In this document: in pieces, positions 4,278 through 19,168 of the stretch | Numbering within the stretch: position 1 is the stretch's first letter | Layout: every line of letters starts with the position of its first letter | IMG/VR virus record: IMGVR_UViG_3300042562_000149 | Span: 1-33,659 of that record | Length of the DNA stretch: 33,659 bases | Source of the DNA: a virus | Reading direction: 5' to 3' (one strand) | Notes under the pieces: generated by a model | What the model was told of the DNA's origin: nothing | What the model saw: the letters and a program-made list of their open reading frames with translations, nothing else | Database searches by the model: none | Position numbers and translations under genes: made by a program

Positions 4278-4571
4278 GTGCTGACATTTGCTTTTGGTGA
4301 GATGGGAATGATGCCCGATGAGTTTTACGCCTTGACATGGAATCAATATATATTGAAATGTCAAGGCTTTTTTAATAAAGAAAAAAAAGACTGGGAGCGG
4401 ATTGGATGGTCTACGTGGAACGGAATGAGAGTTCACGTAAATAAAGGAATGCCCAGTTTTAAAAAGTTTATGTCATTTATCTACGAAAATGATGAGATAG
4501 CAGACATGGACATAATCAAAGATCAAATGAATAAGGCGATGCTTAAATACTTACAAGATGCAAGGAATTGA
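4278..4571 (+). CDS. Tail assembly chaperone, frameshift extension (T-like domain)
   Basis: The frame is open from 4245 and has only a GTG at 4278 as an independent start. It is better read as the C-terminal half of a -1 frameshift product starting at 3910 (220 aa in total). The segment LTFAFGEMGMMPDEFYALTW is the typical start of T-domain chaperones, where a Trp-rich segment leads into a G-x-x-P-x-E-F motif. The end overlaps the tape measure start by 14 bases. In lambda, the T domain recruits tail tube subunits to the G-bound tape measure; the same role is inferred here. Confidence 0.72.
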   Translation: MLTFAFGEMGMMPDEFYALTWNQYILKCQGFFNKEKKDWERIGWSTWNGMRVHVNKGMPSFKKFMSFIYENDEIADMDIIKDQMNKAMLKYLQDARN

Positions 4572-6705
4572 GATACCTATTGGCGCACCTTTAGGCAAAT
4601 TAGATGATGATTTAAAAGGTGCTCAAAAAAAATTAAAAGGATTTACTAATACTGCTGAAACAGATTTAAAAAGTTTTTCATCTACTGCTAGTAGTACATT
4701 TAAAAGCGTAGGACTTGCTTTTGCAGGTGCTTTTAGTGTAGGTGCTTTTGTAAGTTTTGGGAAAGAGGTATTAGCAGTAACGGCTGAGTTTGAAAAGTTT
4801 GGTGCAGTTCTAGGTAATACTTTAGGCTCTAATGCTTTAGCAAAATTAAAATTGAAAGAAATTTCAGATTTTGCAGCTAAAACTCCATTTAGCGTAAATG
4901 AATTAACTGATTCCTTTATCAAGTTAGCTAATCAAGGATTTAAACCTACGGGAGATGAAATGCGAAGTCTAGGAGATTTGGCATCAAGCACAGGTAAATC
5001 ATTTAATCAATTAGCAGAGGCAATATTAGATGCACAAACTGGTGAATTTGAAAGACTAAAAGAGTTTGGAGTTAGAGCACAGGCTTCTGGTGATAAAGTA
5101 ATTTTTACTTTTAAAGGAGTTCAAACCATAGTAGATAAATCATCTGAGGCTATTAGAGGTTATGTTTTATCTTTAGGTAATGCTGAGGGTGTATCTGGAT
5201 CTATGGCAGTTATATCTGAAACATTAACAGGTAAGATTTCAAACTTAGGGGATAGTTGGGATCAAATGCTTGTATCAGTTGGAAGCAATACTTCTGGAGT
5301 GTTTACTAGCGCTATTGATTTAATAAGTCAAGCAATTAATAAAGTTACAGATTTTAATAAATCCTTAAATACAGTATCAAAATTTAAACTTGAATCAGAT
5401 TGGGGCGAAAAATTAAATAGAGCAATAAATCCTTTTGCAGAAAAAGGTTCAACATCTACAGAAAAAGCTATTTATGCTATTAAACAAGCTGATACTGAGG
5501 TTACTAAATTTGTAAGCGGAGCATTAGCAGGTGCAAAAAGCACTTCTGATTTTGGTACTGCAATAGCAACTCTGCAAAAACAAGGCAATGCTATGATTGC
5601 TGATTTTAAAATGTTTGCTCCGCAAGGATTAGTAGGGATAAAAACAACTTATGAAGAAGGAATAAAAGCCTTAAAAGAGGGCAGGACTGCTTTTGAAAAT
5701 GAATTAAAAAAGAGCACACCTGCAAAAATAAATTTAGCTGCGGAAAAAAAGGCTGCTGCTGAGGCTGCAAAATTAGCAAAAGAATCAGCTAAAACTCAGG
5801 CTGAAATAAGAGTACAAGCTCAAGCATTTGCAGGTAAACTAGTTATAGATGGTTTTACAAGAAACATTGAAGCTGAAAAGTTAGCTATTGAAAAGGAATT
5901 TGCAGGACTTGATGCATTAATAGAAGAAACAAATCCTTTTGCTAAATTATTTGAAAAGCAAGATCAAGCTAATGTTCAGTCCTTATTAAGTCCATTTAAA
6001 AAATTTAAAGTTATTTTACAAAGCGAAATATTGCCTCAGATTGGAAGCTCATTTAAAACTTTCTTTGATGATATTTTAATGCAAGGTAAGTTTTCATTTG
6101 ATTCATTAGGTCAGGCAATTGCAGCTTTAGGTCAGGCAATTAAAAATACGTTTTTATCAGTATTAGCTAATGAGGCAACTCAGGGTGTTTTAAATTTGTT
6201 AGGATCTAAAGGCGGTAAAACTGGAAAAAGTGCAACTCCATTAATATCAGGATTAGCTAAATTAATAGGAATAGGAGCAGGCGGCGCAGCGGCAGGAGTA
6301 GCAACCGCAGGTGCTTTATCTGGAGTTGCGGCAACGACTGGAGGTGTAATTTTAGGCGCACCAATAGCAGCTGCAGGAACAATAGGATTAGGAACAGTTG
6401 GAGCAGGAGTTGCAGCGGGTGGAGCAGTAGGCGTAGGAACTGCAGGAGTGGCAGCAGGAACAGTTGCATCAGGTGGATTGTTACTGCCTATTTTAGCAGG
6501 TATAGCAGCAGCAGCAGGTATTGTATCATTATTAAGTAAGAAAAAACAAGTACCTGTTCCTCAAGCATCATCAACTATCAGCACAAGTGCCGCAGGATCT
6601 GCTCAGGATTTTGGAGGTGGTAGAGTTGTATTTGAGATTTCAGGAACTAACTTAATTGGTGTATTAAATAGAGCAGGTGCTAAACTTCAAAGATTCGGAC
6701 CATAA
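4558..6705 (+). CDS. Tape measure protein, 715 aa
   Basis: This is the longest tail gene after the fibre and follows the chaperone pair. The N-terminal 35 residues form an amphipathic, Lys-rich helix. Residues about 60-230 carry the TMP_2-type pattern KEISDFAAKTPFSVNELTDS, with TGKSFNQLAEAI and MAVISETLTGKISNLGDSWD. The middle is Ala/Lys-rich coiled coil (about 395-450). Residues about 565-665 form a long Gly/Ala/Val-rich hydrophobic region that could insert in the host membrane. At roughly 0.15 nm per residue the tail would be near 105 nm, an inference. I see no embedded lytic domain. Confidence 0.88.
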   Translation: MQGIEIPIGAPLGKLDDDLKGAQKKLKGFTNTAETDLKSFSSTASSTFKSVGLAFAGAFSVGAFVSFGKEVLAVTAEFEKFGAVLGNTLGSNALAKLKLKEISDFAAKTPFSVNELTDSFIKLANQGFKPTGDEMRSLGDLASSTGKSFNQLAEAILDAQTGEFERLKEFGVRAQASGDKVIFTFKGVQTIVDKSSEAIRGYVLSLGNAEGVSGSMAVISETLTGKISNLGDSWDQMLVSVGSNTSGVFTSAIDLISQAINKVTDFNKSLNTVSKFKLESDWGEKLNRAINPFAEKGSTSTEKAIYAIKQADTEVTKFVSGALAGAKSTSDFGTAIATLQKQGNAMIADFKMFAPQGLVGIKTTYEEGIKALKEGRTAFENELKKSTPAKINLAAEKKAAAEAAKLAKESAKTQAEIRVQAQAFAGKLVIDGFTRNIEAEKLAIEKEFAGLDALIEETNPFAKLFEKQDQANVQSLLSPFKKFKVILQSEILPQIGSSFKTFFDDILMQGKFSFDSLGQAIAALGQAIKNTFLSVLANEATQGVLNLLGSKGGKTGKSATPLISGLAKLIGIGAGGAAAGVATAGALSGVAATTGGVILGAPIAAAGTIGLGTVGAGVAAGGAVGVGTAGVAAGTVASGGLLLPILAGIAAAAGIVSLLSKKKQVPVPQASSTISTSAAGSAQDFGGGRVVFEISGTNLIGVLNRAGAKLQRFGP

Positions 6706-16547: not shown

Positions 16548-16578
16548 TTTGTATTTATAAATTATTTTTATAACTTTA
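16548..16578 (+). promoter_or_regulatory. Bacteroidetes-type promoter (TTTG-N19-TAACTTTA)
   Basis: A TTTG at 16548-16551 is followed after exactly 19 bases by TAACTTTA at 16571-16578, seven of eight positions of the TAnnTTTG -7 box. This is the best promoter in the window. The expected start point, about 5-7 bases downstream, falls on the first base of the pseudoknot RNA (16585), tying the two together. Confidence 0.65.
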
Positions 16579-16584
16579 TAACAA

Positions 16585-16659
16585 TGTCCACATTCATAAA
16601 CCAAAAACACATAACGTATAGCCTGATAGGAGTGGACACCTTGAAGGCATACGTTTTTT
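16585..16659 (+). ncRNA. H-type pseudoknot RNA with terminal U-tract, copy 1
   Basis: Stem P1 pairs TGTCCAC (16585-16591) with GTGGACA (16632-16638). Stem P2 pairs AACGTATAGCC (16613-16623) with GGCATACGTT (16646-16655), 10 pairs with one bulged A. The strands interleave, which makes a pseudoknot. Loop 1 is 21 bases and A-rich. Loop 2 is TGATAGGA and loop 3 is CCTTGAA; both recur nearly unchanged in the copy at 18210, while stem sequences differ yet still pair. P2 runs into TTTTTT (16654-16659) like an intrinsic terminator. It lies between a good promoter and the ERF gene (ATG 16664), so it is either a 5' leader control element or an independent small RNA. Confidence 0.72.
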
Positions 16660-16663
16660 CATT

Positions 16664-17203
16664 ATGGAAAAATCAGAAACAATTACAAGCCTAGCGAAAG
16701 CCTTAATAGACTTTCAGGGAAGAGTTCAGAAGATTTCAAAGGATGCTAAAAATCCATTCTTTAAATCAAATTATGCATCCTTGTCAAACATTCAAGATGC
16801 AATTAGCAAACCACTAGCAGAGTCAGGACTAGCTTATTCCCAGATGCCTAGCGGAGTAAATGGATTATCTACTATTCTAATTCATGCAGAATCAGGAGAG
16901 TATTTAATAGATACGTTTATTATGCCAGTAAGTAAGCCAAACGATCCTCAAGCAGTAGGTTCAGCCATTACCTATGCAAAGCGTTATGCATTAACTGGAG
17001 TACTAGGATTAAACATAGATGATGATGATGATGGAAACAAAGCCTCTCAGGATGTTAGACCATGGCTTAATCCAAATACAGATAAATGGACATCAGTAAT
17101 TAAAGCATTACAGGATGGATATACAATGGATGTAATATTAAAAAAATATAAGATTAGTACGGATAACCAGATGTTATTAGAAAAGGAGGTTACAAATGTC
17201 TAA
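16664..17203 (+). CDS. erf: ERF-family single-strand annealing protein, 179 aa
   Basis: ERF superfamily recombinases anneal complementary single strands and support recombination-dependent phage replication or genome circularisation. The signature is clear: KALIDFQGRVQKISKDAKNP, then YASLSNIQDAISKPLAESGL, STILIHAESGEYL, and GSAITYAKRYALTGVLGL, followed by an acidic run of five Asp (around residues 125). The C-terminal 50 residues are a likely regulatory or partner-binding extension. It overlaps the next gene by 8 bases. It is the first gene downstream of the pseudoknot RNA, which may control it. Confidence 0.92.
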   Translation: MEKSETITSLAKALIDFQGRVQKISKDAKNPFFKSNYASLSNIQDAISKPLAESGLAYSQMPSGVNGLSTILIHAESGEYLIDTFIMPVSKPNDPQAVGSAITYAKRYALTGVLGLNIDDDDDGNKASQDVRPWLNPNTDKWTSVIKALQDGYTMDVILKKYKISTDNQMLLEKEVTNV

Positions 17204-17632: not shown

Positions 17633-17824
17633 ATGAAAAATATTTTAGATAAAAAGAGAATTGCAAAAGCATTAGAGATGATAGTCGGGCAAAATAAAAG
17701 TCCGGCGGATGTTAGCAGGAAAATGAAAATATCAATGCCGGGCGTTTGCAGATGGATGACAAAGTATTGGTTTTATCAGAAGCCAATTAACCCAGTAGTT
17801 ATAACCTTAAAATCAGATGTATGA
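17633..17824 (+). CDS. Small helix-turn-helix protein, 63 aa
   Basis: Residues about 9-43 (RIAKALEMIVGQNKSPADVS, then RKMKISMPGVCRWMTKYWF) form a helix-turn-helix of the transposase/Xre-like kind, with S-P-A-D-V-S-R-K-M-K as the turn and first helix and S-M-P-G-V-C-R-W-M as the recognition helix. The basic surface fits DNA binding. It overlaps the next gene by 4 bases. It could regulate the replication region. Confidence 0.65.
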   Translation: MKNILDKKRIAKALEMIVGQNKSPADVSRKMKISMPGVCRWMTKYWFYQKPINPVVITLKSDV

Positions 17825-18171
17825 ATCACAGAGAATTATATGGTCATTCAATAAGAGATGGATTTAATAAATTTATTTCTAAAAATCCTCATATTTACAA
17901 ATCATTTGAGGAACAAGCATTTAGAGCAATAAAAAAGGGTAGGACTAAAATTAGTTCAGATCTAATAATTAATTATATACGATGGGAACAGTTTATAGAA
18001 AGTTCTGATGAACATTTTAAAATTAATAATAGTTACTCAGCTTATATAGCAAGGTTTTTTATACAACAAAATCCTGAATATAAAGATTTATTTAATTTTA
18101 GAAAGTTAAGAAATGAGGAGGATGGTCAATATATGTCTATTGATGAAAATGGTCAAATATCATTTCTGTAA
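17821..18171 (+). CDS. Conserved phage replication-region protein, 116 aa
   Basis: The pattern HSIRDGFNKFISKNPHIYKS, a R-A-I-K-K-G-R-T-K-I-S-S-D segment, INYIRWEQFIES and F-K-I-N-N-S-Y-S-A-Y-I-A-R-F-F matches a widespread but uncharacterised phage family whose members carry an I-R-W-E and an N-N-x-Y-x-x-x-Y-A-R signature. They usually sit in replication/recombination blocks, as here. Mainly helical; role unknown. Confidence 0.7.
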   Translation: MNHRELYGHSIRDGFNKFISKNPHIYKSFEEQAFRAIKKGRTKISSDLIINYIRWEQFIESSDEHFKINNSYSAYIARFFIQQNPEYKDLFNFRKLRNEEDGQYMSIDENGQISFL

Positions 18172-18196
18172 ATATCAAATATTTTTTCTATATTTA
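18165..18196 (+). promoter_or_regulatory. Probable promoter before pseudoknot copy 2
   Basis: TATATTTA (18189-18196) resembles the -7 box, with a degenerate TCTG at 18165-18168 in place of TTTG, 20 bases upstream. The 11-base TATATTTATAC is identical to that at 15260. A start site near 18201-18204 would lie just before pseudoknot stem P1 at 18210. Confidence 0.48.
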
Positions 18197-18209
18197 TACT
18201 AATGGCTGA

Positions 18210-18290
18210 CTTCGACAACAAGCTGATTATAAAACATTTAAACCCTTTGGGTAGATAGGAGTCGAAGCCTTGAAACCTAAGGGGTTTTTT
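18210..18290 (+). ncRNA. H-type pseudoknot RNA with terminal U-tract, copy 2
   Basis: Stem P1 pairs CTTCGAC (18210-18216) with GTCGAAG (18261-18267). Stem P2 pairs AAACCCTTTGGG... in the window AAACCCTTTGG with its G neighbour (18240-18251) and CCTAAGGGGTTT (18276-18287), 12 pairs including two G-U. Loop 1 is 23 bases and A-rich. Loop 2 is TAGATAGGA and loop 3 CCTTGAAA, matching copy 1, whereas the stems share no sequence. The U-tract 18285-18290 follows P2. It lies between a promoter-like box and the gene at 18304. Same architecture, same promoter distance and same operon-head position as copy 1. Confidence 0.72.
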
Positions 18291-18303: not shown

Positions 18304-18525
18304 ATGAAAAAACACAATGGTTACAGATCTTGGAATGAATGGAATGTAAGTTTATGGATTAATAATGATGAGGCATTGTATAGGCACGCCTTAGACCTTG
18401 TAGAAAATTTTACTTTATCTCAAGCAACAAAAATATTTATGCACCACCATTGGATAACGCCAGATGGTGCAGATTATAATCGCATTTGCGTTTACAATAC
18501 CCTAAAAGAGCTAAAAAATGGATAA
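18304..18525 (+). CDS. Small conserved phage protein (NGYRSWNEWNVSLWINND motif), 73 aa
   Basis: The opening HNGYRSWNEWNVSLWINNDE followed by ALYRHAL is a sharp motif known from small proteins in many unrelated phages (I believe DUF7249-like). The rest is helical with HHHWITPDG. Trp-rich short proteins of this class have no known function to me. It is the first gene after the second pseudoknot RNA and overlaps the initiator-like gene by 8 bases. Confidence 0.72.
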   Translation: MKKHNGYRSWNEWNVSLWINNDEALYRHALDLVENFTLSQATKIFMHHHWITPDGADYNRICVYNTLKELKNG

Positions 18526-19168
18526 GCTGCAATGGTTTAAGTTTACAATTAGCGACTGGGTGATGGGCAAGATTATGAGATGCCCGGAGGTTACACAAGC
18601 GAGATTCATCTGGCTATGTTGCCAATACTGGAATAAAGAATGTGCAATGAGTTATGAGGATGCAGAGTTAGAGATCGAAAAAGAACATTTAACTAATTTA
18701 TTAAGCCGAAGGATTATATTATTAGAAGGAGATAAGATAAAAATTAAGTTTCTAGATAACCAATTAATAAACATTTTAGAGGTTAGTAAGGGCAGAAGTA
18801 TAGCAGCTAAAGCTAAATGGGATAAATTCTATGATCAAAAGAAAGATGCAAATGCTATGCAAGTCTATGCAAATGCAGAGCAAATGGATGCAAATGCTAT
18901 GCAAAACGATGCAGATAAGATAAGAGTAGATAAGAAAAGAATATATATACCTACTCTGGAAGAAGTTGAAATTTATTTTAAGGATAATGGCTACACTAGA
19001 GATTCAGCCATAAAGTCTTTTAATTATTATGCTGAGAATAACTGGAAAGATAGCCGGAATAATCAGGTAAAAAACTGGAAGCAGAAAATGCAAGGCGTAT
19101 GGTTTAAAGAAGAAAACAAAATTAAAAACGAGCAACTACCTGCTCACCTAACCAGAGTATTAAATTGA
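18518..19168 (+). CDS. Replication initiator-like protein, 216 aa
   Basis: Residues 1-100 (WFKFTISDWVMGKIMRCPEV, then ARFIWLCCQYWNKECAMSYE) follow the winged-helix, DUF1376/Lin1244-like pattern of phage replication proteins. A linker holds two DANAMQ units (110-115 and 124-129). The C-terminal domain (PTLEEVEIYFKDNGYTRDSA, then FNYYAENNWKDSRNN and WKQKMQGVWF) is typical of Bacteroidetes phage initiator or helicase-loader proteins. It directly precedes the helicase-like ATPase, and the two genes overlap by 4 bases. Confidence 0.7.
   Translation: MDKLQWFKFTISDWVMGKIMRCPEVTQARFIWLCCQYWNKECAMSYEDAELEIEKEHLTNLLSRRIILLEGDKIKIKFLDNQLINILEVSKGRSIAAKAKWDKFYDQKKDANAMQVYANAEQMDANAMQNDADKIRVDKKRIYIPTLEEVEIYFKDNGYTRDSAIKSFNYYAENNWKDSRNNQVKNWKQKMQGVWFKEENKIKNEQLPAHLTRVLN

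Follow-up and report, generated by a model that had tools for sequence, protein, structure and literature searches.

A kissing-hairpin leader RNA proposed to attenuate replication and recombination operons of Bacteroidota phages

The preQ1, SAM-II and purine riboswitches are small leader RNAs built on an H-type pseudoknot or a kissing loop, with conserved unpaired bases. In the plasmids pT181 and pIP501, attenuation takes place in the leader of the rep gene and is exerted by an antisense RNA. Regulatory RNA in phages of Bacteroidota is, to our knowledge, little known. Phage HK022 carries two put RNAs, putL and putR, of ~70 nt and two stem-loops each, near its two early promoters (PMC9378689). 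Here we describe a compact RNA class with strong comparative support that occurs twice in a viral sequence of 33,659 nt (IMG/VR record IMGVR_UViG_3300042562_000149; "the window" below is this whole stretch). The RNA is predicted to be two hairpins, H1 and H2, joined by a 7-bp kiss between their loops, and we lean toward reading it as a leader that acts in cis, in Bacteroidota phages, to attenuate the transcription of operons for replication and recombination.

This RNA resembles the leaders of intrinsic-terminator attenuators in its order of promoter, structured leader, hairpin with U-tract and, shortly after, start codon. It differs from them in that the loop of the terminator-like hairpin joins a 7-bp kissing pseudoknot with a 5' hairpin, and neither an antiterminator helix nor a conserved leader peptide was recognized. 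It shares with the HK022 put RNAs two stem-loops directly downstream of a promoter-like box and, in the window's clade, the number of two per genome, but here, unlike in the description of put, the hairpins kiss and a U-tract lies behind the second one; the host phylum also differs. The small riboswitches are likewise pseudoknotted or kissing-loop leaders with conserved unpaired bases, but the present RNA has no Rfam match and no link to a metabolic pathway. Proposed attenuation in a replication-gene leader recalls pT181 and pIP501, which however use an antisense RNA; none was recognized here, and no search was made for one. A likeness between the joining sequences and the 23S rRNA L1 stalk was dropped since the pairing partners differ.

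The window has no match in Rfam 15 at the gathering threshold, in agreement with an earlier reading of it from the letters alone (the sequence-only reading), which had assigned the element to no named RNA family. The two copies gave only sub-threshold, chance-level matches (best trpB, 23 bits versus 59), and in 14 loci that included examples of subfamilies B and C, described below, only tRNAs were matched. No description of the class was found in a literature survey whose coverage left out most subscription papers, preprints and structured-RNA lists other than Rfam. The RNA thus appears to be previously uncatalogued, in the sense of having no Rfam 15 match.

The motif GATAGGA-N7-CCTTGAA occurs exactly twice in the window, at 16625-16645 and 18254-18274, both on the plus strand, while 0 are expected by chance (100 shuffles of the window). 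N7 of both copies pairs with a 7-nt strand starting 40-44 nt upstream, giving 7 bp each of TGTCCAC/GTGGACA in copy 1 and CTTCGAC/GTCGAAG in copy 2, and a long stem flanks the motif and is followed by T6, so the two copies do have one architecture, as the sequence-only reading had it. P1 denotes the pseudoknot, and P2 and P3 are two names for the outer stem of H2. This stem alone folds better than nearly all shuffles in copies 1 and 2 (z ~ -3.7). Between it and an 8-nt loop, H2 is predicted to hold an internal loop, GAU/UGAA, and a 3-bp inner helix. The parts of the two copies are as follows.

16585-16591, plus strand: TGTCCAC, 5' strand of the copy 1 pseudoknot, close to where the transcript is predicted to start; pairs with 16632-16638 (covariation)
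16592-16613, plus strand: copy 1 A-rich linker, retained as 5' untranslated region in relatives without the RNA
16614-16654, plus strand: copy 1 terminator-like hairpin H2 (fold; match to model R1, 52.6 bits)
16614-16623 with 16646-16654, plus strand: copy 1 H2 stem P3, A16620 bulged
16628-16630 with 16639-16641, plus strand: copy 1 H2 inner helix
A16631 plus 16632-16638, plus strand: copy 1 H2 loop, the latter part being the pseudoknot 3' strand
16654-16659, plus strand: copy 1 U-tract, T6 (sequence)
18203-18225, plus strand: copy 2 hairpin H1, TGGCT 18203-18207 with AGCTG 18221-18225
18210-18216, plus strand: copy 2 pseudoknot 5' strand CTTCGAC, inside the H1 loop
18226-18239, plus strand: copy 2 A-rich linker (sequence)
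18240-18287, plus strand: copy 2 terminator-like hairpin H2 (fold; covariation; match to model R1, 74.7 bits)
18240-18252 with 18275-18287, plus strand: copy 2 H2 stem P3, with internal loop GAU/UGAA
18257-18259 with 18268-18270, plus strand: copy 2 H2 inner helix
A18260 plus 18261-18267, plus strand: copy 2 H2 loop, the latter part being the pseudoknot 3' strand
18285-18290, plus strand: copy 2 U-tract, T6 (sequence)

About 40 distinct relatives in Bacteroidota-phage contigs have the same architecture, and compensatory changes among them are heavy. A pattern scan of viral contigs that required the U-tract returned 28 stretches, nearly all of them true by independent pairing tests, and a scan with a promoter-like TTTG in place of the U-tract returned further members, which also end in U-tracts. 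A loose pattern with variable gaps had given mostly chance matches, and the U-tract or promoter requirement was added; L025, L066, L148, L231, L238 and L250 were dropped despite fitting the pattern, being apparently coding or without promoter, P3 or U-tract. Since an exact-motif search makes the motif look invariant, 80 loci were fetched by the ERF protein (the gene product behind copy 1) alone, to avoid circularity. The U-tract stands at the stem base in all homologues, including those retrieved without requiring it, and is kept in the loci fetched by ERF alone.

Homologues with compensatory changes, the lack of which had been set as refuting the sequence-only reading, were looked for and decisively found, and the covariation that it had claimed for the stems is borne out across the homologues. 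All 11 of 11 pairs of P3 are changed on both sides, with 82 double-changed cells against 24 in shuffles, and stem and inner helix together are paired in 95.3% of cells versus 69.3% in shuffles (23 members in both cases). Of 24 distinct members, 23 have a complete pseudoknot, built from 15 different sequences, as compared with 0 of 666 swapped controls. Across the full structure, including H1 and the pseudoknot, 97.8% of positions are paired in 14 gapless full-length members, versus 25-46% in slid versions. H1 reaches at least five Watson-Crick pairs in 28 of 40 members (19% of swapped controls do so), and its stems in homologues include TAGCT/AGCTA, AGTTATTT/AAATAACT, AAGTTAG/CTAACTT and others. 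Copy 1 has a weak A/T version of H1 or none; H1 is weak or absent in copies at the ERF position, such as copy 1, because only 5-6 nt separate the end of the promoter from the pseudoknot strand there.

Two parts of the earlier description need revision. Its A-rich loop holds as a linker but is not all loop, since most copies have the first P1 strand in the H1 loop. Its joiners GATAGGA and CCTTGAA are present but not unpaired: AGG/CCU forms an inner helix, which also occurs as UGG/CCA and GGG/CCC, the first pair varying among A-U, U-A, G-C and G-U. The loci fetched by ERF carry GATTGGA with CCATGA(A/T), GATGGGA with CCCTGAA, and GATGGGA with CCTTGA(C/G), and these variants indicate that the joiners pair with each other over 3 bp as an inner helix, with covariation at its first pair. 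Next to it a U probably faces a U, and one further variant, GAGGGA with CCTGAA, has one U missing from each side.

Of the 40 members, 39 have a TAnnTTT[GA] box 5-22 nt upstream of the pseudoknot 5' strand, its end 5-16 nt away from that strand, as compared with 3.6% of equal windows further upstream. TAnnTTTG is the Bacteroidetes -7 box (PMC7366714), and the promoter type that the sequence-only reading had placed before each copy holds. On the other side, 37 of 40 members have their start codon at a distance of 9-25 nt from the U-tract start, which leaves no room for another promoter between; the gap between the copy 1 U-tract and ERF is 4 nt. With the promoter upstream, the start codon close and no promoter between, leader and downstream gene would by position be on the same transcript. 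The genes behind the RNA are mainly those of replication initiators, ERF annealing proteins, helicases and HNH/GIY-YIG nucleases (in full, ERF annealing proteins, Lin1244_N/DnaD-like initiators, DEAD/SNF2 helicases, HNH and GIY-YIG nucleases, YopX and KilA-N), and the earlier placement at the head of a replication/recombination operon holds. An ATG precedes the H2 loop in 35 of 40 members, often at or before the predicted transcript start, but it is not conserved in alignment A3, where L249, L290 and L297 lack it. In the window the promoters and first genes are the following.

16548-16551, plus strand: TTTG, candidate -33 element of the copy 1 promoter (sequence; 19 nt before the -7 box; consensus in PMC7366714)
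16571-16578, plus strand: TAACTTTA, -7 box of the copy 1 promoter (TAnnTTT[GA] box)
18189-18196, plus strand: TATATTTA, -7 box of the copy 2 promoter (TAnnTTT[GA] box)
16664-17203, plus strand: ERF-family single-stranded DNA-annealing protein, first gene behind copy 1 (Pfam ERF 1.1e-26; PHROG Erf-like 3e-45)
18304-19168, plus strand: first two genes behind copy 2, a DUF7249 protein (73 aa, 5.5e-10) and then a 216-aa protein

The 216-aa protein shares a C-terminal stretch with proteins of L048, L130 and L138, and its relatives have a Lin1244_N domain or match replication initiation PHROGs. Its C-terminal part resembles that of the replication initiators of these relatives.

Two loci without the RNA, L292 and L296, can be aligned with L276, which carries it. 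Promoter, A-rich linker and gene start align with two gaps only, one of 12 nt containing the pseudoknot 5' strand and one of 54-59 nt containing the hairpin and U-tract. Since precisely both interacting pieces are lacking, the pseudoknot halves must have been gained or lost together. In L292 and L296 the same promoter would lead into ERF through a short leader, and we regard this absence as the strongest evidence that the RNA may be an optional cis-regulatory leader.

In the attenuation that we propose, RNA polymerase would start at the TAnnTTTG promoter and make H1 (which in copy 1 would be no more than the first pseudoknot strand), followed by the A-rich linker and H2, and the loops of H1 and H2 would kiss through 7 base pairs. 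H2 and the U-tract would act as an intrinsic terminator, where a fraction of the transcripts would end ahead of the start codon. Expression of the operon would then be a matter of read-through, which could be low and constant or could rise once the kiss or the terminator is undone. The hairpin is directly followed by its U-tract, as is expected of an intrinsic-terminator attenuator, and among the three roles offered by the sequence-only reading that of leader or attenuator fits best. The output of the operon is probably set by the leader RNA. No protein family common to 13 carrier phage sequences was found by blastp (the best occurred in 6 of 13, and the top families looked structural). Given that the carriers have no phage protein in common, the effector that we infer for this regulation is most likely a host factor or a small molecule, or alternatively the level of attenuation would be fixed.

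Several points weigh against attenuation. It is proposed from sequence, and neither the folds nor inspection revealed a competing antiterminator or alternative helix. The start codon lies 34-52 nt away in 3 of 40 members. Many members are closely related, so that independent events are fewer than the counts, and the blastp search for a shared phage regulator ran over partly incomplete contigs. Finally, the sealed 5' and 3' ends would also fit a stable small RNA (sRNA).

Such an autonomous sRNA, of ~75-95 nt, would act in trans on host or phage targets and merely lie beside early genes, and its own promoter and terminator-like end are both present by sequence. We nonetheless consider it unlikely because the U-tract abuts the start codon at a nearly fixed short distance in 37 of 40 members, so that placement is not independent, and no other promoter is possible in the 4 nt before ERF. 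There is also no obvious conserved exposed stretch for target binding except the A-rich linker, and the internal-loop sequence is replaced in subfamilies B and C. A put-like element, which would bind RNA polymerase while still being transcribed and let it pass terminators further along the early operon, would explain two-hairpin RNAs directly behind operon promoter-like boxes as in HK022 (PMC9378689) and the lack of a phage protein common to all carriers. Here, however, H2 itself is followed by a U-tract, which is no part of the put description, and the start-codon distance is constrained, needlessly for a put element, so this explanation is improbable.

We give similarly little credence to translational control or 5' stabilization, in which the knot would block or space ribosome loading or shield the mRNA from 5'-end decay and the U-run would be merely an A/U-rich initiation region. 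H2 ends 9-25 nt before the start codon, H1 starts at about the transcript start, and in relatives that lack the RNA the A-rich linker makes up a short leader, all of which would suit such a role. In every member and subfamily, however, the U-run sits right at the foot of the stem, which is more specific than A/U-richness, and the linker used as leader in those relatives is upstream of H2. Autoregulation by a particular product is unlikely because the genes behind the copies differ: the same protein was not found behind every copy (ERF, Lin1244_N, helicases, HNH, GIY-YIG, YopX and KilA-N). A metabolite riboswitch, sensing for example a nucleotide, would fit a compact pseudoknotted leader with terminator and conserved internal loop but is very improbable, as the downstream genes belong to replication, recombination and homing rather than one pathway, and the swap of the internal loop for a sarcin-ricin-type motif in subfamily C, with the rest unchanged, argues for a structural role of the loop.

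The subfamilies came to light in a search for topology only (stem, 7-nt pseudoknot and U-tract, no joiner sequence) over 2.5 Mb of fetched loci, which recovered mostly the same class, as compared with 1 match in 1.1 Mb of shuffled sequence. Subfamily C, found in this way, has the internal loop AGUA/GAA, which we take to be of the bulged-G or sarcin-ricin type, an inner helix GAG/CUC and a U-tract; its 9 members have 6 different pseudoknot sequences, H1 is paired over four pairs in 9 of 9, and ATG follows 9-19 nt after the U-tract start. Subfamily B keeps the topology, but its joiners are GGCGGGT/CCCAAA and its pseudoknot, CTGGAAG/CTTCCAG, does not vary (L138 and L289 at the ERF position, L352, L361, L365). 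In L289 and L138 it occupies the place where relatives have subfamily A, to which the window copies belong, or nothing; the ERF locus of L289 thus has an RNA of different sequence and the same topology. More tentatively than attenuation itself, we suggest a new phage RNA superfamily in which the kiss between the first and the terminator hairpin would set termination and time or dose replication genes of Bacteroidota phages on a host signal, with GAU/UGAA, GGC/AAA and sarcin-ricin AGUA/GAA as interchangeable internal-loop modules. A kissing terminator with swappable internal loops would be a useful case for RNA structure and co-transcriptional folding.

Where ERF shares 71% or more identity with that of the window, nearly all loci have a copy before ERF and/or one ~1.6 kb further on. 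The claim of two copies per genome is true of the window and of phages closely related to it, which have two of subfamily A; most other phages, judged by the other long sequences, have one. About 790 Bacteroidota genome searches with model R1 (covariance-model E-values being rough) gave no real locus besides one contig of a Lacinutrix metagenome-assembled genome, which carries subfamilies A and C, and the pairing test judged all pattern matches in genome contigs but L187 to be chance. The subfamily C pattern likewise had one real locus in bacterial genomes, on the same contig, a match in G672 lacking the stem. The members in viral contigs and the single real bacterial locus indicate that the RNA is phage-linked, and a bacterial housekeeping RNA was rejected on the same count.

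Blastn showed the RNA in the cultured Polaribacter phages Freya and Danklef and in no other isolate. The two have the same RNA and different first genes behind it, and the cultured pairs Polaribacter HaHaR_3_91/Freya and R2A056_3_33/Danklef therefore make replication timing in these phages testable. The loci as a whole form a natural series, in which some carry the RNA, some another subfamily and some none. The leader RNAs of L189/L192 (Danklef) and L190/L191 (Freya) are identical, and the sequences diverge directly after the U-tract; Danklef has an extra small gene between leader RNA and replication gene as compared with Freya.

Some further elements were observed. Between the two copies, window 17634-17825 (plus strand) holds a small open reading frame of ~63 aa by eye with a helix-turn-helix-like sequence. 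At window 4318-4373 (plus strand), in the structural gene region, an AT-rich hairpin followed by T6 looks like a simple terminator; model R1 matches there and in L223 (genome G576) were rejected as simple hairpins without joiners. G018 (99.6 kb) has a further variant besides its subfamily A copy, ~2.6 kb from it (L388:10150-10196), whose internal loop is GATTA/GAAA and whose pseudoknot is GTGGAGG/CCTCCAC. Another, different RNA-like element, conserved and without Rfam match, occurs in the phage contigs L397, L404, L405 (~4780-4860, plus strand), L409 and L414: it reads (G)AAGCTTGATACCGG...AAAGTAGAGATAWAACCGCTCGAAGCC followed by T5-7, its closing stem varies between loci, and it often lies near tRNA genes.
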